Positions 26,678 to 39,484 of a DNA stretch of 64,000 nt are shown piece by piece. The stretch's first letter is position 1. Every line of letters starts with the position of its first letter. Below the pieces are notes generated by a model. It ran no database searches. It was not told where the DNA came from and worked only from the letters and a program-made list of their open reading frames with translations. The DNA comes from an uncultured Roseateles sp. (lineage in GTDB: Bacteria; Pseudomonadota; Gammaproteobacteria; Burkholderiales; Burkholderiaceae_C), in assembly GCF_945956965.1 (NCBI RefSeq), contig NZ_CAMFJS010000005.1, positions 62,001-126,000 of the forward strand, in the 5' to 3' direction. Position numbers and translations under genes: made by a program.

Positions 26678-29497
26678 TCAGTCGTAAACCGACTTCTCCG
26701 CCCGGCGCGCCAAGACCGCGATGGGCGGCGCCCAGCGCTCGCCGCGCGCCTTCTTGCTGGTCACCAAGGTGATCTCGGAGGGCTCAAACACTTCCACGTT
26801 GTGGGTGATGGGCGTGGTCAGCAAATACTGGGCGCGGGTGGAACGCAGGAAGTGGCCCACCAGCTGGATATTGCGCACATCCAAGTGGGCAAAGGGTTCG
26901 TCGATGAAGACGAAGCCGCCGGCGCTGTCGTCGTCCTTCATCAGGCCCACCAGCAAGATCAAACTCTTGAGCACCTGCTGGCCGCCCGAGGCTTCGCCGT
27001 CGTTGAGGCCGACCTCACCCTTACCGTCGAAGTTGAAGCGCACTTGCAGGCCGGCTTGCGCCAAGACCATATCGTCGTTGTCCAGATGCGGCAGCTCGGC
27101 CACGGCGATCACGCCGGCCAACTCGCCCAGCTCCTGCACATTCTTTTTGTAGCGGCGCACGGTGGCACGCAGCACGTCGATATAGCGCTCGCGGGCGTTG
27201 AAGGCGGCGATGCGGGCCATCTCATTGCTGGCGCGACGGTCGTCCAGCTGGGCGGTTTGTTCCAGCACGGCCACGCTCATGCGGGCATGGCGGTCTTGCA
27301 CCTGCGGGTCGGTTTCCCACACACCGTTGTCCAGCTCGGCCTGCACATGGCGGCCAGCAATCTCGGCCTGCTTGGCGTTTTCAAACTCGTCGCGCAGGGC
27401 TTGCACCGTAGCAGGCTGCACCCAGCTGGCGGGGAAGTTGGCCCGCGCCTCTTTCGAGGCCTTGGCCGCCTGCGCCAACTCAGCGCGACGGGCACCATGC
27501 TCACGCTGCACGCGGCTGACGTTGTCTTCGCTGGCCTTGAGCGAAGCCTGGGCGGACTCGTAATCGCGCTCGCTGCGGGTGTGCTGCGTCAGCGCGCGGT
27601 CATGCTCGGCTTCCAGCGCCGACATGCGGGTGGCGGCCTCGATGCGGGCTTGCTTGAGCGCGGGCAGGCGCTCACGGCAGGCGGCGAATTCATCCGCTCG
27701 CTCACCCAGCTCCTGGGCGGCTTTGTGGCCTTGAGCGGCGCGTTGCGCGTCCTTGAACTGGCGCTCCACCTCGGCCTGTTCCTTGGCCAGGCGGGTCAGC
27801 TCGGCGTCGTAACGGGCCAGCTCGCTTTCCAGCGCTTTGCGGCGCGATTCCAGCGCGGACACGCCGAACTGGAACTCACGCGGCTCCACCCACAGGCTGC
27901 GGCCGCCACGGCCGTCGCGGTAATAGGCATCGGGCGTGATCCACTCGCCGCCGGCCTTGGCGCCAGCCTCGGTGTCCTTCACGCGGCGGATGGCGCCGAG
28001 CTGGCGCAGCAGCCAGGCCGGCAGCTTGGCATTGATCTTCAACGCGGCCAACAGCGAGTCCGGCGGCACCGAGCTGGGCAATGTTTCAGCTTCCGCCACC
28101 ACGTAATGCCGGTAGCGCTCACGCGAGGCCAGGGCGAAGGCGTGTGATTCATCCTTCGCGTTTTGCAGCACCACCACCCAGCGTGAGGGGCGCAGCATGC
28201 CTTCGGCGGCGGCACGCCAAGCCTCGTCAGCGATGTCGATGCAATCGGCCAGCACATGGTGGTGAATGCCGGCATCGTCCAGCGCGCGGCGGAAGCGCGT
28301 TACCTCCACCGGTGGCGGCGGCAGGCGCTGGCCGCTCAGGGCTTCCAGTGCGGCCTGGGCCTTTTTGCTTTGGTCGTTGGCGCGGGTGAAGCTTTCGCGC
28401 AGGCTGTGCTGGCGGCTGCTCAAGTCCTGCACGCGCTGGGCCAACTCCTGCGCATCTGCTTCCACCGCGGCCAGGGTACGCAGCTCTTCCTCGCGCTTGG
28501 CCAGCAGCTCCATCGGCCGCTCGGCCTCGCGGGCGGCGTCGAAAGCCAGACGGTTCTGCTTGCGCTCTTGCTCGATCTCGCTCAGGCGGGTCTTGGCCTG
28601 GGCTGAGCTTTCAAACAGCTTGAGCAGATCGGCGCGGCGCTGGGCCAGGGTGTTCTCATCAGCCCGCGCAAACAAGCGCTGGCGATGCAGCTCACGCAGG
28701 CCCTGGGCGGTGCGCTGGCGGGCCTCGCTCCACTGCAGCACCGGCAGTACCTCAGTGGCCAGGCGCTCACGCTCGCGTAGGCGCAGCTGGTATTGCTGGT
28801 AGCTGGTGACGCGGTTGGACAAATCAGAGAGCTGCGCCTGCGTGTGCGAGAGCTCATGCGTGGCCTGCTCCACTTCCTTGAGCAGATGCTGCTGATGGCT
28901 GCGGGCTTGGTCGTAGCGGTCCAGCACCTCCTGGTCGCCAAACACCTCGAACACCAGGCGCAGCAATTCCTTCGGGCTCAGCTCGCACAGGCGGTCGGTC
29001 TGGCCTTGCTCCAGGGCCAAGACGCGGCCGATGGCGCGGGTCAGGCCGGCGGCTTCCAGGCGGCGGCGCCAGGCTTCGATGCCCATCCAATCTTTCTCGC
29101 CCTTCTCGGCCACGGCTTCCACCTCGGCCACGCCGTCCAGCATCATGTAGCGGCGCTGCCAGTCGCCACCATGGCGCTCGATGCGGCAGACCAGGGTCAC
29201 CTGATCGGCATACAGCAGCGAGCTGGCAAAGGGCCGCGAGCTGTTCTGGCGCCCACGCGGGCGGTTGTCCACCAGGGCGCGCAACCATGCAGTTTCGGCG
29301 TTAGCGTGGCGGGCATAGGTTTTGTAGGTGCGCCCGCCCGAGCATTCCAGGCCCAGCAAGGTGCGCATGGCATCCAGCAGCGTGGTCTTGCCCGAGCCGT
29401 TTGGGCCGGCGATGGTGATGATGGCGCCGTCCAGCGGCATGGTGACGCGCTGGATGTAGTCCCAATGCAGCAGTTCGAGAGATTGCAGGTGAAACAT
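26678..29497 (-). CDS. mksB: MksB-like SMC ATPase (condensin-type)
   Basis: A 939-residue SMC-family ATPase. It opens FHLQSLELLHWDYIQ with Walker A GPNGSGKTT at residues 31-39. Long coiled coils flank a central non-coiled region (about residues 385-560, including FRRALDDAGIHHHVLADCID) that takes the hinge position. The C-terminal head has the signature EASGGQQVLKSLILL near residue 835 and Walker B GGFVFIDEPFAHLD near 855-868. The length equals MksB of Pseudomonas and is well short of canonical SMC or MukB. It is last in an mksF-mksE-mksB operon, three bases after mksE. It would extrude or clamp DNA in chromosome organisation or plasmid restriction. Confidence 0.85.
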   Translation of the reverse strand: MFHLQSLELLHWDYIQRVTMPLDGAIITIAGPNGSGKTTLLDAMRTLLGLECSGGRTYKTYARHANAETAWLRALVDNRPRGRQNSSRPFASSLLYADQVTLVCRIERHGGDWQRRYMMLDGVAEVEAVAEKGEKDWMGIEAWRRRLEAAGLTRAIGRVLALEQGQTDRLCELSPKELLRLVFEVFGDQEVLDRYDQARSHQQHLLKEVEQATHELSHTQAQLSDLSNRVTSYQQYQLRLRERERLATEVLPVLQWSEARQRTAQGLRELHRQRLFARADENTLAQRRADLLKLFESSAQAKTRLSEIEQERKQNRLAFDAAREAERPMELLAKREEELRTLAAVEADAQELAQRVQDLSSRQHSLRESFTRANDQSKKAQAALEALSGQRLPPPPVEVTRFRRALDDAGIHHHVLADCIDIADEAWRAAAEGMLRPSRWVVVLQNAKDESHAFALASRERYRHYVVAEAETLPSSVPPDSLLAALKINAKLPAWLLRQLGAIRRVKDTEAGAKAGGEWITPDAYYRDGRGGRSLWVEPREFQFGVSALESRRKALESELARYDAELTRLAKEQAEVERQFKDAQRAAQGHKAAQELGERADEFAACRERLPALKQARIEAATRMSALEAEHDRALTQHTRSERDYESAQASLKASEDNVSRVQREHGARRAELAQAAKASKEARANFPASWVQPATVQALRDEFENAKQAEIAGRHVQAELDNGVWETDPQVQDRHARMSVAVLEQTAQLDDRRASNEMARIAAFNARERYIDVLRATVRRYKKNVQELGELAGVIAVAELPHLDNDDMVLAQAGLQVRFNFDGKGEVGLNDGEASGGQQVLKSLILLVGLMKDDDSAGGFVFIDEPFAHLDVRNIQLVGHFLRSTRAQYLLTTPITHNVEVFEPSEITLVTSKKARGERWAPPIAVLARRAEKSVYD

Positions 29498-29500
29498 CGA

Positions 29501-30223
29501 TCAGGACTCGCTATCGGATTCTGTTTGGATTTCTTCTTCCGGCTGGCGCAGCGTGGCCAGGGCCGGCGCCACCAGCGGGTCGGTGCTGCGCGCCAGCACA
29601 TCGCCCAGCGCGCCGTCAAGAATGCGCGGGGCCAGGGTGTCGTAGTCCAGCAGCAGGTCCAGCAGCGGGCCTTCGGCTATGTCTTCTCCGCGCCGGGTGA
29701 TGAAGCCGTTGCGCTCCAGCAGCTTGAGGTTGGAGTCCAGGCGCATCTTCTTGCCCAGCTGGTTGCCGAAGTCGGCCAACAGGCTGCGGTAGGAAATCGT
29801 TGGGCTGACGCTGATGGCCATGGGCACCGGCTTGTCAGTGGCAAAGAACTCGCCCTGCCCTTCTTCCTTGGCCTCGGCACGCGCCACCTGGCGCTGGCGC
29901 TTGGGCAACACAATCAGTGACCACAGCACCACCAGCAAGGCAACGCCGTCACGCGGCAAGTCCAGATTGTTGTTCGCAGCTAGGCCGGTTTCGCCAAACA
30001 CCGCGGCTTCCGCCGGGCGCAGCATGGCCAGGCTGATGTGGTCGGCGTAGAGGTTGTCGATCACCCGAAGGCCCACGGCGGCGAGGCGCTCACCCAGAGC
30101 GGTCCAGATATCGGTATCAATCAAGGCGCGGCGCACCAACGGGTGGCTGCGCGGCAGCCAGCGGCGCGCCAGCAATTGCGCCGCCAAGGCGGCGGCATCG
30201 TCCAGGGCTGAACTACTACTCAT
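29501..30223 (-). CDS. mksE: MksE-like winged-helix condensin subunit (DUF4194/JetB class)
   Basis: A 240-residue protein in the position and size of MksE/JetB, the winged-helix subunit that bridges kleisin and SMC heads. Visible are an N-terminal helical part (LAAQLLARRWLPRSHPLVRRALIDT), a central LLVVLWSLIVLPKRQRQ stretch and a winged helix around DFGNQLGKKMRLDSNLKLLERNGFITRRGEDIAEGPLLDLLLD. Its ATG overlaps the mksF stop (ATGA at 30220-30223), and its own stop is three bases before mksB, so the three genes are translated as a unit. Assignment rests on context and the winged-helix pattern. Confidence 0.8.
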   Translation of the reverse strand: MSSSSALDDAAALAAQLLARRWLPRSHPLVRRALIDTDIWTALGERLAAVGLRVIDNLYADHISLAMLRPAEAAVFGETGLAANNNLDLPRDGVALLVVLWSLIVLPKRQRQVARAEAKEEGQGEFFATDKPVPMAISVSPTISYRSLLADFGNQLGKKMRLDSNLKLLERNGFITRRGEDIAEGPLLDLLLDYDTLAPRILDGALGDVLARSTDPLVAPALATLRQPEEEIQTESDSES

Positions 30224-31560
30224 TCGGATTTATCCTCGTTCTTCTCTTGCGGCGCCGGGGTGGCGGCGGCAGCGGCCGTGCTGCGCAGCACGCCGGAGCT
30301 CATCCAGGCGATGTGCTCGTCGTCAATCTCACCCTGCTCAGCCGACCAATGCACGCGCCAGGGTTGGCGCGCCATATCGCCGGTGGCGCCACTCAAATGC
30401 TGGGCCTGCGGGTCACCCAGCAAAGGCAGCAGCTGGGCGCGGTAGGAGGCGCGGGCATAACTGCCACCCAGCACGGCGGGGGCCAGGTCTTGCTCGACCT
30501 CACCGGCCTCACTCCAGCGCGCCAGCAAGGCCTGCATCAAGCCCATCTCGGGCGGCAAGCTCATCACCGCCAGCTCACCCAGGGCGGCAGCCTGCGCGCT
30601 CGGCAAGGCCTCGGGCACGGGGGGCTTGGGCCGGTCGCGCTCAAACTCGGCCTCAGCGGTGTCCAGCAACTCATGCTGGGCCACAAAGATCGGATGCACC
30701 GGGCGCGACAAGGCGCCCAAGCTGAGGTTTTCCAGGAAGTGCACGCCCTGCAACCAGCGCCGTACATCGGTGGTGGTGATGCCGGTGGAGCCAAGCGTGA
30801 CGCGCTGGCGATCAGCCTGCTGCAGCGCACGGTTGAACTGGCTGGCCATGGCCAGCAAGCGCGCCTGCGCCAGGCCCAATTCGCGCGCCAGGCGCTCCAG
30901 CTTGGCATTGCCCTGCTCTTGCGCCTGCACCATGATGGCTGAGAGCGCCTCGCTGGCCTTTTCCACCAGGCTGAGCGCACGGCCGAAACGTTGGCGGGCA
31001 CGGCGCAGGTGAAATTCGGAACCGCTGGCAATGGCGTCGGCAAACTCGTCGTACAAGCGCGAGAGCTGGGCCTGCAAATGCTGCAACTGCGCCGCGTCCA
31101 GGGTGCCAAGCTGGTGGGCGCCGGTGACGTTGGTCAGCAAGGCGCTCAGGTCGGCGTCTTGCGCGCTGGCGGTGACCAGGGGCGTCAGCAGACCCAGCAG
31201 TTGCTGGGCCAAGGGCGTGACGCTGTATTGCTGGTTGGAGGCATCCCACAACAGCAGCTCCGCCTCGCGCAGGCGCTTGAGCACCAGCTCGAGCGGCTCG
31301 TCGCGCAGCATATGGAAGTGCAGATTGAAGGTTTCGCGGCTGATGCGCGAGGCCGGCATGGCCATCACTTCCATGAACACCCACACCCGCAGCTTGACCA
31401 AGCTGGCCGGGCCGTGGAACAGCGCGCGCAAGGCGGCCGTCAAGGCTTCTTGCCGCTCTAGTTGCCAAAGGAGCTGCGCCTCATTGGGCGCAGCAGCATC
31501 GCGAAAAAAATCTTCAAAGCGAGCTTCGTCTTCGCTCGCTGGGTGGTTGGGCTCCCGCAT
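30220..31560 (-). CDS. mksF: MksF-like kleisin subunit (JetA class)
   Basis: A 446-residue, mostly helical protein at the head of the mks operon, matching the kleisin MksF/JetA in size and order. The N-terminal winged helix spans about residues 25-120 (EALTAALRALFHGPASLVKLRVWVFMEVM, then LRDEPLELVLKRLREAELLLWD), followed by a four-helix region with long amphipathic helices (RLYDEFADAIASGSEFHLRRA) and a C-terminal winged-helix-like part ending in an Ala- and Lys-rich tail. The start MREPNHPASEDEARF lies nine bases after the cold-shock/DUF1294 gene. Assignment is by architecture and synteny. Confidence 0.78.
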   Translation of the reverse strand: MREPNHPASEDEARFEDFFRDAAAPNEAQLLWQLERQEALTAALRALFHGPASLVKLRVWVFMEVMAMPASRISRETFNLHFHMLRDEPLELVLKRLREAELLLWDASNQQYSVTPLAQQLLGLLTPLVTASAQDADLSALLTNVTGAHQLGTLDAAQLQHLQAQLSRLYDEFADAIASGSEFHLRRARQRFGRALSLVEKASEALSAIMVQAQEQGNAKLERLARELGLAQARLLAMASQFNRALQQADRQRVTLGSTGITTTDVRRWLQGVHFLENLSLGALSRPVHPIFVAQHELLDTAEAEFERDRPKPPVPEALPSAQAAALGELAVMSLPPEMGLMQALLARWSEAGEVEQDLAPAVLGGSYARASYRAQLLPLLGDPQAQHLSGATGDMARQPWRVHWSAEQGEIDDEHIAWMSSGVLRSTAAAAATPAPQEKNEDKSE

Positions 31561-31568
31561 GGTCTGGA

Positions 31569-32177
31569 TTATCCCCGCTCCCACCAGGCCCGCAGCCATG
31601 GCGAGCAGATCAAGACGAACAAGAGCCAATTGCCCAGCACGGTGAGCCAGAAAACCCGCCGAAAACCCGGCTTGGCCGACTTGTGCCGCAGCAGATGCTG
31701 GGCCAGCAAGGCGCCGGGCCAGCCACCGGCCAGGGCCAGCAGGTGCAAGGTGTTTTCCGCCACCCGCCATTGACCGCGCGCGGCGGCCCGCTTGTCACCG
31801 ACATAGACAATGAAGGTGGCCAGGCTCAGCGCCATGTACAAACCCCACACGCCGGGGCGCAGATCCCAGGCGATGTGACAAGCCAAGTAGAAGGTGGCGA
31901 AGGCCGGCACCAGCCACAAATGATTGGCGCTGCGCCGGGCTGCCGCAGGCTTGGCCGCCGGCACCCGAGTAGACAAAGGCCGCACCTTGAGCGCGCGCTT
32001 CTTGCCTTGCGCGTCGTGCCCGACCTCAAAACTCAGGGCCATGCCCTGCCGCGGCCGCTCTTGCTGCAGGGCGAAAGCCTTGATGTGGACAAAGAGCTTG
32101 GGCGCACCGTCCCGCGGGGTGATAAAGCCATAGCCTTTGGCGTCATCCCATTGACTCAGCAGTCCTTCAAATCGCAT
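31569..32177 (-). CDS. Cold-shock domain-DUF1294 membrane protein
   Basis: A 202-residue protein: an N-terminal cold-shock nucleic-acid-binding domain (residues 1-62, with KGYGFITPRDGAPKLFVHIKAF containing both RNP motifs), a short basic linker, then a DUF1294 membrane domain with three to four helices (FIVYVGDKRAAARGQWRVAENTLHLLALAGGWPGALLAQHLLRHKS is the family core). This fusion occurs widely in proteobacteria. It lies between the rhlE terminator and mksF, nine bases before the latter, so read-through into the mks genes is possible. An ATG five codons upstream is an alternative start. Confidence 0.9.
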   Translation of the reverse strand: MRFEGLLSQWDDAKGYGFITPRDGAPKLFVHIKAFALQQERPRQGMALSFEVGHDAQGKKRALKVRPLSTRVPAAKPAAARRSANHLWLVPAFATFYLACHIAWDLRPGVWGLYMALSLATFIVYVGDKRAAARGQWRVAENTLHLLALAGGWPGALLAQHLLRHKSAKPGFRRVFWLTVLGNWLLFVLICSPWLRAWWERG

Positions 32178-32280: not shown

Positions 32281-33981
32281 TCAGCGACCGAAGCCGCTGC
32301 GACGCGGGGCGCCGCCGGGAGGGCCGGCGCGCTTGGGGCCGCGCGAATCAAAGCCACCGGGACGACGATCGCCGCCGAAGCTCGGCTTGTCGCCAAAGGA
32401 CGGACGGTCATTGCGGGGAGCAAAAGCCGGCTTGTCGCCAAAGGCGGGGCGGTCGTTGCGGGGTGCGAAACCACGGTTGTCGCCATGGCCGCCACGGTTG
32501 TCGTAGCCGCCGCGGTCATTGCCACGATCGAAGGCAGGACGGTCATTGCCAAAGCCAGGACGATCGTTGCCGAAAGACGGGCGGGCATCTTGACGGAAGT
32601 CGCCGCCACGGGGAGCAAAGCCCTCCGGACGCGGGCCACCTTCACGCACAAAAGGCTTGCCGCCGTCGCGATGGAAGCTGGGCTTGCCGCCGAACTTGCT
32701 ACCGCCGCCGCCAAACTTGTTGCCGCCGAAGCCAGGCTTGTTGCCCCAGCCAGGACGGGGACCACGGTCTTCAAAACCACCGGCGCCAGCGGGCCGAGGC
32801 GGGAAGATGCGCGGTTCTTGCGTCTTAGGCTCCAGGCCTTCGATTTGCGCCGAAGGAATGGTCTGCGTCGTGAACTGCTGAATGCGGCGGATCATGGACA
32901 CATCATCACGCGTAGCCAGAGTCACAGCCAGGCCAGAGCGGCCAGCACGGCCGGTACGGCCGATACGGTGCACATAGTCCTCAGCCTTCATCGGCAGGCC
33001 GTAGTTGATCACGTGGGTGATGGTGGGCACGTCGATACCGCGGGCAGCCACGTCGGTGGCAACCAGCACGCGCACTTCGTGACGGCGCAGGGCCATCAGC
33101 ACGCGGTTGCGGCGGCCTTGCGGCATGCCACCGTGCAGGGGAGCCACGGCATGACCCAGCTCTTCCAGACGCTCGGCCAGCCAGTCAGCGTCACGCTGGG
33201 TGCTGGTGAAGACAACAGCCTGGTCCAGATCTTTGTCGGCCAGCAAATGCTCCAACAATTGATCCTTGTGGTTGTTGTTGTCAGCCCAGTGCAGACGCTG
33301 GGTGATGTTCTCGTGGGTGTCAGTGTGCGAAGCCACGTCGATGCGCTGCGGATCGCGCATCAGTTCATTGGCCAGGCGGCCCACATGGCCAGCGAAGGTG
33401 GCGCTGAACATCACGGTTTGACGCTCGGCCGGGATGCGGTCGGCCACGAACTTGATGTCGTCGATGAAGCCCATGTCCAACATGCGGTCGGCTTCGTCCA
33501 GCACCAGAATTTCAACGTTATCCAGCACGCACTTGCCGGATTGCAGGTGGTCCATCAGACGGCCAGGGGTGGCGATCAGGATGTCCAGCGGGCCGCTCAA
33601 TTGGCGGATTTGCAGGGCGTAAGGCATGCCGCCCAAGACGGTGGCGATCTTCAGGCCAGGCACATGGCGGCCGTAGGTCTGCGCGGCCTTGGCCACTTGC
33701 ATGGCCAGCTCACGGGTGGGGCACAGCACCAGCACCTTGGGGCCGTAGTTCTTGCCACGGACGCGCTCTTGCTGAGTCGCACGGCCGGCCAGAATCTTGC
33801 TCAGCGCGGGCAAGATGAAGGCGGCGGTCTTGCCGCTGCCGGTACGGGCGGAAACCATCAGGTCCTTGCCGGCGATACCAGCGGGGATGGCCAGGGTTTG
33901 AACTTCGGTGGCGGTTTCGTAACCGGAATCCTTGACGGCACGCAGAATGGACTCGTGCAGGCCTAGATTTTCAAATGTCAT
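32281..33981 (-). CDS. rhlE: DEAD-box RNA helicase RhlE
   Basis: A 566-residue ATP-dependent RNA helicase. The motifs appear in order: Q motif FENLGLHESILRAVKDSGYETATEVQTLAIP, I ARTGSGKT, Ia PTRELA, II DEAD in VLDEADRMLDMGF, III SAT, and VI HRIGRTGRAGRSG. The catalytic core ends near residue 375; the rest (about 190 residues) is a Gly/Arg/Asn/Asp/Pro-rich tail for RNA binding or phase separation. I prefer the ATG of MTFENLGL, preceded by GAAAGAAG, over an ATG five codons upstream. An unusually long untranslated leader precedes it. Confidence 0.93.
   Translation of the reverse strand: MTFENLGLHESILRAVKDSGYETATEVQTLAIPAGIAGKDLMVSARTGSGKTAAFILPALSKILAGRATQQERVRGKNYGPKVLVLCPTRELAMQVAKAAQTYGRHVPGLKIATVLGGMPYALQIRQLSGPLDILIATPGRLMDHLQSGKCVLDNVEILVLDEADRMLDMGFIDDIKFVADRIPAERQTVMFSATFAGHVGRLANELMRDPQRIDVASHTDTHENITQRLHWADNNNHKDQLLEHLLADKDLDQAVVFTSTQRDADWLAERLEELGHAVAPLHGGMPQGRRNRVLMALRRHEVRVLVATDVAARGIDVPTITHVINYGLPMKAEDYVHRIGRTGRAGRSGLAVTLATRDDVSMIRRIQQFTTQTIPSAQIEGLEPKTQEPRIFPPRPAGAGGFEDRGPRPGWGNKPGFGGNKFGGGGSKFGGKPSFHRDGGKPFVREGGPRPEGFAPRGGDFRQDARPSFGNDRPGFGNDRPAFDRGNDRGGYDNRGGHGDNRGFAPRNDRPAFGDKPAFAPRNDRPSFGDKPSFGGDRRPGGFDSRGPKRAGPPGGAPRRSGFGR
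32383..32475. repeat. 45-base tandem repeat in the RhlE tail
   Basis: Two adjacent, slightly diverged copies with a period of 45 bases, each encoding 15 residues of the pattern FAPRNDRP.FGDKP. Further partial copies (FGNDRP units) extend upstream to about 32590. The repeat keeps the reading frame. Confidence 0.75.
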
Positions 33982-34389
33982 AACTTCTTTCAACATGGCT
34001 GTGCCCTGCCTGCCAAGATTGCAGACGAGCGCACATGCTTGAGTACGTCAATGATGGAGACGCATCAAGCCAATAATGTCGCTGGGAGAAAGCTCGCGTC
34101 GTGCGCCAGGTCTTGCGAAATCGGCAAAGCAAAGCTTGGCCGATGGGTGCCTGGGGCGGCGCCGGGGGAACAGTCAAAGCGACGGCATCGCCGCCGACCG
34201 AACCCGAAGGGCGCTCAGCGCATCACCCGGTGAGGGTGCTCAGCAAAGCATTCGATAGGAATGTGTTTGCTGTCACTGCGCACAAGCTTCATGAATGAAG
34301 AACTTGGGCAGCGGCCTGAACATAGGTCAGAGGAGACGTACGAATTACCTGGAACAGAGCGGGTGTCATGACCCCCAGGCAAGACCGCA
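33982..34389 (-). other. Long 5' leader of rhlE
   Basis: About 400 bases between the rhlE start codon and the only good promoter candidate upstream. No gene is supported in either strand: open frames are short and arginine-rich. GC-rich inverted segments around 34140-34235 could fold. Long structured leaders are typical of cold-inducible helicase and cold-shock mRNAs; that this leader is regulatory is my inference. Confidence 0.4.
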
Positions 34390-34554: not shown

Positions 34555-37542
34555 TTACTGAGCCTCGGGCAGCATCAAAGCCAGCGCCTGCATGAAGGCG
34601 CGCAAGTCTTCGCCATGCATCAAGCGGCGGGCGATGTCGCCGTCCAGGCTGCAGGGCGGCAGTTCGGGCAGGCTGTCCAGCGCCAGCAGCATTTGCTGCT
34701 CCAGGCCTGGCTGCGCAATCAGCTGAATCATCGGCAGGCCGGCCGAATCCTCGCGGCAGACGCTGGCCAAGCGCTGCTCCAGCAAGGCTTCGCCCCAAGG
34801 CAGTTCCAGATTGATCAAGCCCAGGCCGAGGCCCGCCGCAGCACCCTCTCCTGCTGAGTCAATATGAAGATCCAGGCCGGCCGCGGCAGCATCGCTGCAC
34901 AGCAGGATTTGCAGGCTGGGGTCATCGCGCCAGCGGCGCGCCTGATGCTGACGCTGCACCAGGCTCTGGCCGTCGTGCAGATGCAGCAGCTTGAAGCCGG
35001 CCGCTTGCAGGGGCGCTACCGCCAAGGCCAGGGCATCGTCCCACTGGCAGAACACCACCAAGCGGGCTGCGGCGCGGCCCAACAATTCGCGCGCCACCTC
35101 AACCACCGCCGCCAGCTTGGGGCTAGGCAAGTCAGCGGCATCAGCAGAGGAAGCTGCAACAGCGCCAGCCAGCAACTGCGGGCTGATCGCCACGCGGCGC
35201 AAGGCTTGCAGCTGCTGGGTGATCTGCAGCAACTCGGCGTCAGACAGATAGTCGCTGCGCTGCCAGCGTTGCACCGCCCGGCGCAGGCCTTGCCACAGGC
35301 CGGCTTGCGCGTCTTGCTGCTGCGTGTTCACGCTCACCTTGCGCAGCTGCAGCAGCGCCGGCGGCAGCGTGGCCACCAAATCGGCGCGGCTGCGGGCGAA
35401 CATCAGGCGCTCCAGCGTTTGATCCAGCGCGTCCAAGGCCACAAAGCCCTGCACGCGACCTTCTTGGTCACGCTTGGCGTGGTAGCTCAGGAAGCGGGCG
35501 TAAGGGCCGCTGCGCTGGCGATCCAACAACTCCACCAGGGGCAACAAGGCCTTGGGGCGCTGATTCAAAAGCTCGCCGCTCAAGAGCAGCAAAAGGCCCT
35601 GATCCAATTGCTTGAGCTGGCTGAGCATCTGCTCGTCCAGCAGCGCCGCGTCATCCACGATGATCAACTCGGGCGCGAAGGCCTGCAGCGGGGTCAGGTC
35701 TTGCGTCAGCGCCGTGTGCGGGGCAATGCCGATCTCGGCCGCGCTTGGCGCCACGCCGGCCTGCAGCATTTGCACGCCGCGCGGGCTCAAGGTCTGCGCC
35801 TCGGCCTGCCAGCGGGGCAAGGCGCTCGTCTCGGCCAGCACCAGCACACGCTCCACGCCCATATGGCGCATCAACAACTCGGCCGCAGCCAAGGCTTGTG
35901 CGTGCAGGCCAAGCCCCAAGTCATCGGCCAGCAGGCTGCGCCCGGCGCAGACGGCAAACAAGGCCGCTTCCAACTGATAAATGGGCAAAGGCAGCTTGAG
36001 CAAGCCGTGCAGAGCGGGGCTTGCCAGGCCTTGCGGATAGGCTTGCTCCAAGCGCTCCACGCGCTGGGCGGCGTCACGGCGGTGCGCCAGCAAAGGCCAC
36101 ACGCCCTCTTCCACCCGCAAGTCATGGCCCAGCGTGGCGGCCAGATTCAGCAACTGGCTCAGCGCACCCGGCGCCTCGGCACGCAGGCGGCCGTTCTCGT
36201 CCAGCAAAGCCTGGGCAGCCTCGGCCAGCGCATCGGGGCAAGCACGCCCCTGGCGCCAACGCAGCTGACGGCGCGCGCCAAAGCGCAGCAAGACCTCGCT
36301 GTAATCCGCATGCCAGCCTTGGCGCAGCACTTGCGCGGCCTCGGGCTGGCTCAAGAGTTCTTCCAGCACGAAGTCGATGTGCTCGCAAGCACCGCGGTTG
36401 CTGAAGGCAAAGCCTGCACAGCTGCAGCGGCAGTCGATGGCCTGGGCGCCATGGACCGTCACTTGCCAGTGCGCGGCCGCATCGCTCAAGGACGTGACGC
36501 GGTAGGCGCCGAAATGGCTGCTCACATCCTCGGCCTGCAGGCTAAAGCGTGCGGGGGCCTTGTGCGGCTGAGGCGAAGCCACTGGGGCGGGAGCCGGGGC
36601 CACACTAGGCTCGGCAGCGAGCTTCGTCTGCTTGTCAGCTGGCTTAGCAGCGGACTTGCCCTTGGATGCTGCGCCTGTGGCGGTCGATTTGGGCTTTGCC
36701 GGGCTGACAGCGGCCGGTGCGGCGGCTTGGGCCTTGGGCTTTTTCGCCTTGGCTTTGGACGGGGCGCTGGGTGCGGGCACAGGCGCAGCGACAACAGCAG
36801 CTTCCACCGCGGGCTTGGCAGACTGCTTAACTGCAGGCTTCTTTTTCGCAGGCACTGCGGCAGTTTCGGGTACCACAGGCGCGGTAGCCTTCTTCGCCGC
36901 CGTCTTCTTTGCAATCGGTTCGACGGCCTTGGCGGCCGATTTCTCAACTGGCTTCTTCACAGCCGCTTTGACTGGGGCCTTTGCTGGCACTTCCACCGGC
37001 GCCATTGCCACAGCCTTCACAGCCGCTTTCACTGCCTTGACGGGCGCTGCCGCAGCGGCCTTCTTGCCTGCAGCAGTTGTCTTGGCGGGAGCGACTGCAG
37101 CCACTGCCTTCTTCTTGGCCGGCGCCTTCACCGCAGGCGTCGCTGCCGACGCAGCTTTGGCCTTGGCCGACGAGGCCTTGACCGGCGCCGCTGCCGCCTT
37201 CACCGCTGGCTTCGCAGCTGGCTTAGCCGATGCCTTTGCGGCCGGCTTGGCGCTGACAGGCGCAGCCACAGGGCTCGCCGCCTTGCTCGCGCGTTTGGCG
37301 GGTGCCGCTGCAGGGCTGGCCTTGACGGTCTTCTTTGCAGCGCTGACCGCCTTCACGGTGGGTTTGGATTCAACCGTCTTCACAGCTTTGACGGCCTTGG
37401 CGGCTGGCTTGGCCTCTGCCTTGGCGGCAGCGCTTGGCTTGGCGGCGGTCTTGCTGGCCGCGGGCTTCTTGGCTGCGGTACTGGCGGGCGCGGCAGTGGT
37501 TTTGGCACTGCTGGCGGCGGATTTCTTGGAGGCTGTAGCCAT
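34555..37542 (-). CDS. SNF2-like protein with degenerate ATPase motifs, SWIM zinc finger and histone-H1-like tail
   Basis: A 995-residue protein in three parts. Residues 1 to about 328 are a Lys/Ala/Pro-rich low-complexity tail (AKKPAASKTAAKP style) like bacterial histone-H1 homologues. Residues about 368-388 carry a SWIM zinc finger (CRCSC...ACEH). From about residue 500 the sequence aligns by eye with the SNF2 helicase core, but the catalytic residues are lost: motif I reads LADDLGLGLH with Leu546 in place of the Walker A lysine, motif II reads VDDAALL (Asp630-Asp631) instead of DEAQ or DEAH, and motif VI reads EQRLASVCRE instead of QATDRAHRIGQ. I conclude a DNA-binding pseudo-ATPase. The gene follows pabBC by 34 bases. 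Confidence 0.8.
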   Translation of the reverse strand: MATASKKSAASSAKTTAAPASTAAKKPAASKTAAKPSAAAKAEAKPAAKAVKAVKTVESKPTVKAVSAAKKTVKASPAAAPAKRASKAASPVAAPVSAKPAAKASAKPAAKPAVKAAAAPVKASSAKAKAASAATPAVKAPAKKKAVAAVAPAKTTAAGKKAAAAAPVKAVKAAVKAVAMAPVEVPAKAPVKAAVKKPVEKSAAKAVEPIAKKTAAKKATAPVVPETAAVPAKKKPAVKQSAKPAVEAAVVAAPVPAPSAPSKAKAKKPKAQAAAPAAVSPAKPKSTATGAASKGKSAAKPADKQTKLAAEPSVAPAPAPVASPQPHKAPARFSLQAEDVSSHFGAYRVTSLSDAAAHWQVTVHGAQAIDCRCSCAGFAFSNRGACEHIDFVLEELLSQPEAAQVLRQGWHADYSEVLLRFGARRQLRWRQGRACPDALAEAAQALLDENGRLRAEAPGALSQLLNLAATLGHDLRVEEGVWPLLAHRRDAAQRVERLEQAYPQGLASPALHGLLKLPLPIYQLEAALFAVCAGRSLLADDLGLGLHAQALAAAELLMRHMGVERVLVLAETSALPRWQAEAQTLSPRGVQMLQAGVAPSAAEIGIAPHTALTQDLTPLQAFAPELIIVDDAALLDEQMLSQLKQLDQGLLLLLSGELLNQRPKALLPLVELLDRQRSGPYARFLSYHAKRDQEGRVQGFVALDALDQTLERLMFARSRADLVATLPPALLQLRKVSVNTQQQDAQAGLWQGLRRAVQRWQRSDYLSDAELLQITQQLQALRRVAISPQLLAGAVAASSADAADLPSPKLAAVVEVARELLGRAAARLVVFCQWDDALALAVAPLQAAGFKLLHLHDGQSLVQRQHQARRWRDDPSLQILLCSDAAAAGLDLHIDSAGEGAAAGLGLGLINLELPWGEALLEQRLASVCREDSAGLPMIQLIAQPGLEQQMLLALDSLPELPPCSLDGDIARRLMHGEDLRAFMQALALMLPEAQ

Positions 37543-37576: not shown

Positions 37577-39484
37577 CTAGCAATCGCCGCCCAGCGCATC
37601 CGGGCTGCCCAGCAGGCTGGCTTGGCACCAGCCGCGCAGGCTATTGATAAAGGCAAGGTCTTGGGCGCGGCACAGATCGCTTTTCAGCAATCGCGCTTCA
37701 CTCACGCGCCCCAGATGCAGGAGTTCTTCTCGGTAAACGCCGGGCAGCAGCCCGGCTTGCAAATGCGGGGTCAACCAGCGGCCGTCCAACTTCACGGCGA
37801 TATTGCCGAAGGTGCATTCGGTCAGCTCGCCGTCTTCGTTCCAAAGCAGCACGTCGAAGGCCTGAGCCGGCTTGGTGCTGGTAAAAAAATCATAGGCTTC
37901 GCGCCGCGTGGTTTTGTGTTGAAGGAATTCAGCGCCGGGGCCGCGCGTTGCGACGGCTTGCTCAGCGAGCGCGAGTATCACGCAATTCGGGGTCTGCGGG
38001 AGCGCAGTCAGCTCAACATGCACACGCCCTTGTTCGCCAAGCGTTGCTCGCACACGCCATTGGCCTTGCGGATTTTGCTGAGCTACGGCCTGCAAAGCGG
38101 CGCGCAACTCCGCCTGATTCAGGCGCAAACCGAAGTGCTGGGCCGTGCGCTGCATGCGGGCGATATGGCCGTTCAGGCGCAGCAACTCGCCGTCTTGCAA
38201 GCGCAGGGTTTCCAGCGCCGCCACCGGCGCCTGGGCGCGCAGCAGGAAGCGCGACTTGGCGCGCCACTCTGCAACTTCAGCCGCTGCTTGCGAATCGAGG
38301 GTGATGGCGCTGCCCACGCTGGCGCGCAACTTGGCGCCCCCGCCCTCGCTGTCAACCTGAGCCTCCACCGTGCGAATCGGCACATTGAAGGTCGCCACCC
38401 CGCCCGGCTGCAGCAGACCCAGGGCGCCGCAGTACCAGCCGCGCGCAGCAGGCTCCAGCTCGGCAATGATTTGCATGGCGCGGATCTTGGGCGCGCCGGT
38501 CACCGAGCCACAGGGGAATAGCGCGCCGAACAACTCGGACAATTGCAGCTTGGGCCGGCTCACCGCCGTCACGGTGGAAGTCATCTGCCACACCGTTGGC
38601 AAGGCGTGCAGCTCGAACAATCGCGGCACCCGCACGCTGCCCAGCTGCGCGACCCGGCTGATGTCGTTGCGCAGCAGGTCAACAATCATCAAATTCTCGG
38701 CGCGCTCCTTCTGGCTGGTGTGCAGATGAGCTTGCGCCGCCTCGTCCTCCACCACATCGCGGCCGCGCGCCGCCGTGCCCTTCATGGGCTGGGCCGCCAG
38801 CAGCCAAGAACTGGCCGCACCCGGCACCGGCCGCCAGTCGAAGAACAACTCCGGCGAGACGCTGGCCACGCCGGCCTCGCGCAGAAAAATCGAAAAGCCG
38901 CCCGGTTGGGCGCGGTGCAGGGCCAAAAAGTAGGCGGCCAGATCCACGCCCTCGGCCAGTGCGGAATGCAGCGGCGTGGTCAGATTGACCTGATAGCAGT
39001 CCCCCGCGCGAATCCACTCGCGGATGCGCTCGATCTGCGCGCATTCGTCTAACTCGCTCTGGCTGTCTTGCCAATCTTCGCAGCGGCGTTCGGCGGCCTT
39101 TGCGCCGGCGATCGCATTCGCAGCGCCATCCTCGGGCCAGGGCTCGGGCGCGGTCTCGAAAACCGCAAACTCAGCCAAGGGCAAAGGCGTGTCACGCACG
39201 CACAGCGCCGCGTCAAAAGCCGCAGCCGCTTCGTAGCGCAGGCCGCCCAGCACCCAGGCGCCGGCCCGGCTGGCCGCATGCGCTTCGTCCAGCACCGCAT
39301 TCAGTTCGGCGGCAGAGTGGGCGCGCAACCAGCGGGCCGGAGGCGCGTAGAAGGCACCCCGCACGCGCTCACCATCCTCCCGAGCCAGCGGATGGCGCGG
39401 GAAGTCGAAGGCGGCATGCAGGGTTTGCGGCGCCGGCGCAGCGCCAGGGGCTTCAGTGACTGCAGGGCTCAGGTCAGACGACAT
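37577..39484 (-). CDS. pabB: Fused aminodeoxychorismate synthase I and aminodeoxychorismate lyase (PabB-PabC)
   Basis: A 635-residue bifunctional folate-pathway enzyme. Residues about 1-395 are the PabB chorismate-binding domain (ELDECAQIERIREWIRAGDCYQVNLT, VSPELFF, QPMKGTAARG, PCGSVTGAPKIRAMQII, GWYCGALG). Residues about 405-635 are a fold-type IV PLP aminotransferase-like lyase (LRLQDGELLRLNGHIARMQ, then NEDGELTECTFGNIAV and LLPGVYREELL). Together with a PabA amidotransferase they make 4-aminobenzoate from chorismate. It starts 20 bases after orn and ends 34 bases before the SNF2-like gene, so the three may form one transcript. Confidence 0.93.
   Translation of the reverse strand: MSSDLSPAVTEAPGAAPAPQTLHAAFDFPRHPLAREDGERVRGAFYAPPARWLRAHSAAELNAVLDEAHAASRAGAWVLGGLRYEAAAAFDAALCVRDTPLPLAEFAVFETAPEPWPEDGAANAIAGAKAAERRCEDWQDSQSELDECAQIERIREWIRAGDCYQVNLTTPLHSALAEGVDLAAYFLALHRAQPGGFSIFLREAGVASVSPELFFDWRPVPGAASSWLLAAQPMKGTAARGRDVVEDEAAQAHLHTSQKERAENLMIVDLLRNDISRVAQLGSVRVPRLFELHALPTVWQMTSTVTAVSRPKLQLSELFGALFPCGSVTGAPKIRAMQIIAELEPAARGWYCGALGLLQPGGVATFNVPIRTVEAQVDSEGGGAKLRASVGSAITLDSQAAAEVAEWRAKSRFLLRAQAPVAALETLRLQDGELLRLNGHIARMQRTAQHFGLRLNQAELRAALQAVAQQNPQGQWRVRATLGEQGRVHVELTALPQTPNCVILALAEQAVATRGPGAEFLQHKTTRREAYDFFTSTKPAQAFDVLLWNEDGELTECTFGNIAVKLDGRWLTPHLQAGLLPGVYREELLHLGRVSEARLLKSDLCRAQDLAFINSLRGWCQASLLGSPDALGGDC

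Follow-up and report, generated by a model that had tools for sequence, protein, structure and literature searches.

Why would a bacterium keep the gene for a DNA motor that has lost the means of using ATP? The question arises from a 64,000-nucleotide stretch of DNA from an uncultured Roseateles sp. (NCBI RefSeq assembly GCF_945956965.1, contig NZ_CAMFJS010000005.1, positions 62,001 to 126,000 of the forward strand), hereafter called the window. One of its genes encodes a SNF2-family protein built in the order tail, SWIM finger, SNF2 core. The original prediction, made from the letters alone, took this protein for a SNF2 motor turned pseudoenzyme. Comparison with its relatives supports that view, and we refer to the gene as pseudo-SNF2. 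Its ATP site is predicted from the sequence to be dead. As to its role in the cell, we see about an even chance that the protein serves as an adaptor, held on nucleic acid by its tail.

Lost ATP-site motifs in a recognisable SNF2 core

The protein has the fold of the SNF2 family. Both RecA-like lobes are found by Pfam profiles, SNF2-rel_dom barely above its cut-off (E 8.7e-6, 25.5 bits; cut-off 24.9) and Helicase_C above its own (E 3.1e-6, 27.8 bits; cut-off 23.5), so the core is recognisable, as had been claimed. A structural model of the core has low confidence (mean predicted local distance difference test (pLDDT) 60.1, predicted template modelling score 0.35, 12 sequences) and serves only as fold support. 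Its first five PDB matches in Foldseek are DDM1 (E 5.0e-10), RapA (8.7e-10), Mot1 (2.7e-9), Ino80 (4.1e-9) and ISWI (4.4e-9), with the XPB helicase at rank 35. The lobes are badly placed in the model, because these five matches have template modelling scores by query length of 0.18–0.28 and root-mean-square deviations of 17–30 Å.

Three motifs depart from their canonical forms, which we took from intact relatives in the alignment; each motif was read by its generally known role in SNF2 proteins. Residues 543-547 are GLGLH in place of GLGKT, with Leu546 at the position of the Walker A lysine. VDDAALL at residue 629 stands in place of the DEAx of motif II, and QRLASVCRE at residue 923 in place of the motif VI pattern QRxxRxHRxGQ. 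The protein therefore lacks what marks a SNF2-family ATPase (GKT/S, DExx and the motif VI arginines), and it has the sequence marks of a pseudohelicase: relationship to helicases, degenerate motifs and retention under selection.

These losses extend well beyond the window. None of the 14 copies in the genus, and none of the 18 in the other genera of its clade, has either the Walker A Lys or the Thr; in these 32 copies, hereafter called dead, the Lys is replaced by L, Q, M or H. Both residues are present in 25/25 intact-type relatives. The HRxGQ pattern of motif VI is missing from 14/14 genus copies, so the original prediction was right about motifs I and VI. Its third claim, a changed motif II, is true of this protein but not of the genus: Asp-Glu is found in 11 of the 14 copies, Asp-Ala in one, and DD in only two, those of the window species and of the relative nearest to it. 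In the motif VI region, 14/14 genus copies keep the Arg of the initial QR (or its equivalent).

We placed the gene in a tree built without the three motif regions and rooted on a bacterial SWIM-SNF2 ATPase (L015). It falls in a clade of 31 rows (support 100/99) that spans several genera and has the Walker A Lys in no row. Beside this clade stand smaller groups in which the Lys is kept or is Arg, and lobe 2 is degraded; how these groups branch from one another has poor support (82/48). Intact relatives exist only outside the clade, and are absent from this locus in the stretches fetched.

The relatives came from searches of increasing breadth. Family-wide, 300 of 399 genomes gave a match at E 0.001, from which the stronger matches were taken; 58 homologues were examined overall, including the genus set, with at most three candidates scored per genome. 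At E 1e-40 matches were found in 15 of 399 genomes order-wide (at most three candidates per genome) and in four of 299 phylum-wide (at most four). Weaker, degenerate relatives outside the family would be missed, because the two broader searches used this threshold. Intact-type SWIM-SNF2 proteins were found both within the family and beyond it. Outside the family, GLGKT and DEAQ are present in 14/14 loci spanning motif I. In motif VI, L133 deviates from HRMGQ, and so, slightly, do L123 and L126. L129 and L015 are one gene.

The family also holds further degenerate SNF2 relatives (L061-L066, L076, L078 and L084), with no adjoining pabB in the fetched stretches. Leaving L084 aside, seven of these eight lack the SWIM ligands and six have the Walker A Lys. 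They are possible intermediate stages. Elsewhere in the set, an open frame at a contig edge (L016:1-60) begins with a stretch resembling what we take to be sequencing-adapter read-through, which casts doubt on the start of that contig.

Retention of the gene and its tail, and the change of core charge

The gene is no wreck: judged by its sequence, it is retained under selection. It is present in 14 of 18 genus genomes (E 1e-50), and all 14 frames are open (the N-terminus of one copy, L008, is cut by a contig end). In genome G002 the contig stops just after pabB, the upstream neighbour, so presence cannot be judged there. Three genomes (G014, G016 and G017; L116-L118) have rhlE, the usual downstream neighbour. 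Neither the pseudo-SNF2 gene (E 1e-50) nor this pabB (E 1e-80) has a match in them, and neither gene lies in the stretches fetched around that rhlE.

Ratios of nonsynonymous to synonymous change (dN/dS), from Nei-Gojobori counts over the core with our own script, are 0.08–0.21 in six genus pairs, 0.12–0.31 in five pairs of other clade members and 0.32 in one side-group pair (L062/L063). Four intact-type pairs give 0.15–0.21. The SWIM ligands are kept in 14/14 genus copies and in 17/18 from the other genera of the clade. Of four regions compared within the genus, the first SNF2 lobe is the best conserved, at 67% mean pairwise identity against 57% for the SWIM region. The original prediction had named intact orthologues, beside which this copy would be a decaying gene, as evidence that would count against it. 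The opposite was found: the syntenic orthologues lack the Walker A Lys (14/14 and 18/18), and dN/dS is low.

The tail is largely kept too. Residues 1–330 are 37% Ala, 20% Lys and 13% Pro; with one Arg and nine acidic residues, their net charge is +57. Of the 72 Lys in the protein, 65 are here. The remaining 665 residues have seven Lys and a net charge of −18. A Lys/Ala/Pro tail of about 330 residues, resembling that of H1 homologues, had been predicted and is indeed there, at the N-terminus. Among 936 stretches of 200 residues (steps of 20, in all open frames of at least 200 amino acids in the window), only 11 have at least 15% Lys and at least 25% Ala, and all lie at or overlap this tail. Chance composition was rejected, as the tail is found in 14/14 genus copies. 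By our own threshold (at least 60 residues in Lys/Ala/Pro-rich 40-residue windows), 28/32 dead copies have a tail. The two sets of intact-type loci give 0/16 and 0/15, with one gene in both sets and one locus a fragment without its N-terminal part. In composition the tail is a Lys/Ala/Pro-rich basic tail of the AlgP type. The HC2 profile (PF07382) has no match in the genome of the window at E 0.001. The likeness to bacterial H1 proteins is one of composition, and homology is therefore not claimed.

The core has moved the other way in charge. Over the aligned core, the 25 intact proteins have a net charge of +3 to +19 (mean +10.3; Lys 4.2%), and the 32 dead proteins −28 to −11 (Lys about 1%). 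Base composition was rejected as the cause by a comparison of 32 pairs matched for GC content at third codon positions (GC3), in which the intact mean is +11.3 and the dead mean −17.2. For the motor alone, the values are 0 to +11 in intact proteins, −20 to −11 in the genus and −15 to −1 in the rest of the clade. Acidic values (−15 to −8) are found as well in eight relatives outside the pabB-linked clade, of which six have the Walker A Lys. Because Lys-keeping relatives are acidic too, their sequences suggest, though they do not prove, that the core charge changed before the Lys was lost. The earlier claim that the DNA-binding parts are elaborated thus stands for the tail but not for the motor core, which has lost its positive charge.

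The SWIM finger is recognised by its residues. Its Pfam profile (PF04434) scores below the cut-off (E 0.014, 15.4 bits; cut-off 19.6), and finds no match at E 0.001 in its own genome, though the four CxC...CxH ligands that had been predicted are all present in the protein. A model of this region (164 residues, pLDDT 82.7) has no PDB match at E 0.001.

The locus and its neighbours

The features of the locus are collected in Table 1. Only 34 bases separate the stop codon of the pabB-type gene from the pseudo-SNF2 ATG. The genes pabB, pseudo-SNF2 and rhlE keep the same order and strand in 11 of 12 named genus loci; the twelfth is a 4.5 kb contig. Among clade members from other genera, 17/18 have a same-strand pabB upstream, and the remaining locus, L075, is truncated by its contig and has rhlE downstream. 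An rhlE lies within the fetched stretch in 14 of these 18 loci; that of L077 (the genome of L113) lies about 2.4 kb further than the fetched stretch.

Table 1. Features of the pseudo-SNF2 locus, in window positions.
Feature	Position	Strand	Basis
Pseudo-SNF2 gene, 995 amino acids, ATG start	34555..37542	minus	orthologues
H1-like N-terminal tail, Lys/Ala/Pro-rich, residues 1-330, net +57	36553..37542	minus	composition
SWIM zinc finger, ligands C373, C375, C386, H388	36379..36426	minus	Pfam, residues
Degenerate two-lobe SNF2 core, residues ~536-930	34753..35937	minus	Pfam and fold match of low-confidence model
Motif I (Walker A) remnant GLGLH, Lys and Thr lost	35902..35916	minus	residues, alignment
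Motif II remnant VDDAALL	35638..35658	minus	residues, alignment
Motif VI remnant QRLASVCRE, HRxGQ arginine pattern lost	34750..34776	minus	residues, alignment
pabB-type gene, chorismate-binding and class IV aminotransferase domains, conserved upstream neighbour	37577..39484	minus	
DEAD-box helicase, rhlE-like, usual downstream neighbour	32281..33996	minus	
Three-gene cluster beyond rhlE: 516, 240 and 939 amino acids, the last an SMC-like ATPase	26678..31770	minus	weak profile matches

The arrangement was found at none of eight intact loci with longer flanks, some of which run into a contig end (one has a helicase cross-match inside its own core), and at none of 30 intact-type loci with flanks of at most 1.5 kb (L046-L060, L119-L133). 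In two of the latter, L054 and L056, a chorismate-binding gene lies at a distance and on the other strand.

Beyond rhlE lies a cluster that looks like a condensin cluster of the Mks/Jet type; the likeness to Mks is one that we presume. Its 240-residue product has a weak DUF4194 match below the cut-off. A relative of its 516-residue product is found 0.5–3.2 kb beyond rhlE in 11/11 named genus loci with flanks. In the other genera, the SMC-like gene was found in L113 and is not in the fetched stretch of five of six loci (L103, L108-L111). The cluster is a hint towards the nucleoid, no more.

The rhlE-like helicase itself has, in translation, a long C-terminal tail rich in Gly, Arg, Asp and Phe, with repeated NDRPxFG-like units. 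An Rfam scan of the window gave nothing at the gathering threshold. A promoter scan found none, and a terminator scan found eight against 6.2 expected. Profiles of defence systems give weak matches to the core (best DrmD, E 1.7e-11, 41 bits), in our reading a sign of general likeness to SNF2. Matches to the NCBIfam entry called 'pilus expression-regulating Snf2 family helicase' were weak, and no source paper for that name was found in the literature listing.

Readings of the protein and known systems

How might such a protein work? We propose that an ATP-driven SWIM-SNF2 translocase would have lost ATP binding and hydrolysis. Its motor lost net positive charge and its zinc ligands stayed. The fold was probably kept, as sequence profiles and the low-confidence model indicate, and the protein carries a long basic tail that is H1- or AlgP-like in composition. 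Most likely its work would need no ATP. It would be an adaptor on a tether, fixed by the N-terminal tail to the chromosome or to some other polyanion, with a protein partner bound by the SWIM region and the dead lobes.

Several observations weigh against this proposal. The GC3 matching reuses intact rows and ignores relatedness, the motor-only charge ranges almost touch, and an acidic charge is ordinary among the proteins of the window (pabB −12, a decarboxylase −24). Three dead copies (L077, L079 and L082) have an N-terminal extension of other make-up that falls below the tail threshold, and the fourth exception, L075, is truncated by its contig end. Four relatives (L064, L066, L076 and L078) have both the Walker A Lys and a tail, so a tail is possible without a dead ATP site. 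Moreover, the tree counts two changes of the Walker Lys and three of the tail, with only two independent pairs, too few for an association test, and no association between tail and Lys is claimed.

How do other explanations compare with a tail-tethered adaptor? Tentative, and on balance doubtful, is the idea that a SNF2 remodeller-type motor became an ATP-free, H1-tailed chromatin protein, its binding charge moved from motor to tail, and acts as a nucleoid structural regulator across genera. We consider it unlikely that the protein is, as originally predicted, a nucleoid architectural protein, one whose tail, SWIM finger and dead motor jointly clamp or bridge DNA and shape the chromosome. The H1-like tail, the kept SWIM ligands and the cluster gene beyond rhlE in the genus are in its favour, but the acidic core speaks against clamping by the core, and the SMC-like gene is missing from most fetched stretches of other genera. 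Given the positive charge that the core has lost, an adaptor held by its tail looks likelier than a dead motor clamping DNA. Decidedly unlikely is a ligand for the tail other than DNA (RNA, ribosomes or polyphosphate), with the protein an accessory of RNA metabolism or of granules. In its favour are rhlE, downstream in nearly all genus loci and most others, and the association of an AlgP-type tail with polyphosphate granules (PMC9239181). Against it, a neighbourhood is no more than suggestive, and double-stranded DNA is what the SNF2 family acts on.

Two further explanations concern the gene's state. A working ATPase with an unorthodox nucleotide site is very improbable: the Asp-Glu of motif II in most genus copies and the kept Arg of QR would suit one, but the Walker A Lys and Thr are gone in 32/32 copies and the HRxGQ pattern is gone too. 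We rejected a decaying gene on its way out, whose probability we put close to negligible; the three of 18 genus genomes without a match to the gene or to this pabB would fit it, but the frames are open in 14/14, dN/dS is low, and the clade occupies one locus across several genera.

Among the literature matches listed, all from open-licence PubMed Central, we found no bacterial pseudo-SNF2 family with an H1-like tail. The Variovorax 'snf2' of PMC7494200 was set aside: as described in the part of that paper used here, these are small secreted proteins, not this gene. Three known systems resemble parts of the tail-tethered protein.

For the tail, the likeness is to AlgP and PhaF, whose Lys/Ala/Pro-rich tails are similar in make-up to the eukaryotic H1 tail; in AlgP, KPAA-repeat tails bind DNA and the protein associates with polyphosphate granules (PMC9239181, the passages drawn on here). 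The AlgP tail, however, is C-terminal with 25 perfect KPAA repeats, whereas ours is N-terminal with four KPAA words, and the other domain of AlgP is 124 residues, predicted helical, in place of a SNF2 core. For the dead motor, the likeness is to proposed pseudohelicases, yeast Utp25 and Deinococcus radiodurans PriA (PMC9539457), which share a helicase-type origin, degenerate motifs and a non-catalytic role. They are of the DEAD-box RNA helicase and PriA kinds, not SNF2, and the portion of PMC9539457 drawn on here does not mention an H1-like tail.

The nearest intact relatives, by sequence and tree, are bacterial SWIM-SNF2 ATPases such as L015 and L047. SNF2 ATPases associated with SWIM are recognised as a group in prokaryotes (PMC5512222, as far as the excerpt used goes). 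The nearest relatives share the order SWIM, lobe 1, lobe 2. They differ in retaining GLGKT, DEAQ and HRMGQ-like motifs, in the basic charge of their core and in the absence of a Lys/Ala/Pro tail, and none was found behind pabB. Within one bacterial family there is thus a natural series: SWIM-SNF2 motors that look intact, forms that are partly degenerate, and tailed ones that are fully dead. The series allows one to ask which parts of SNF2 matter once ATP is unused, and whether H1-like tails can replace the DNA tethering of the motor. Compared with its intact relatives, the pseudo-SNF2 protein suggests that a former DNA motor has been reused as an anchor or adaptor on DNA.

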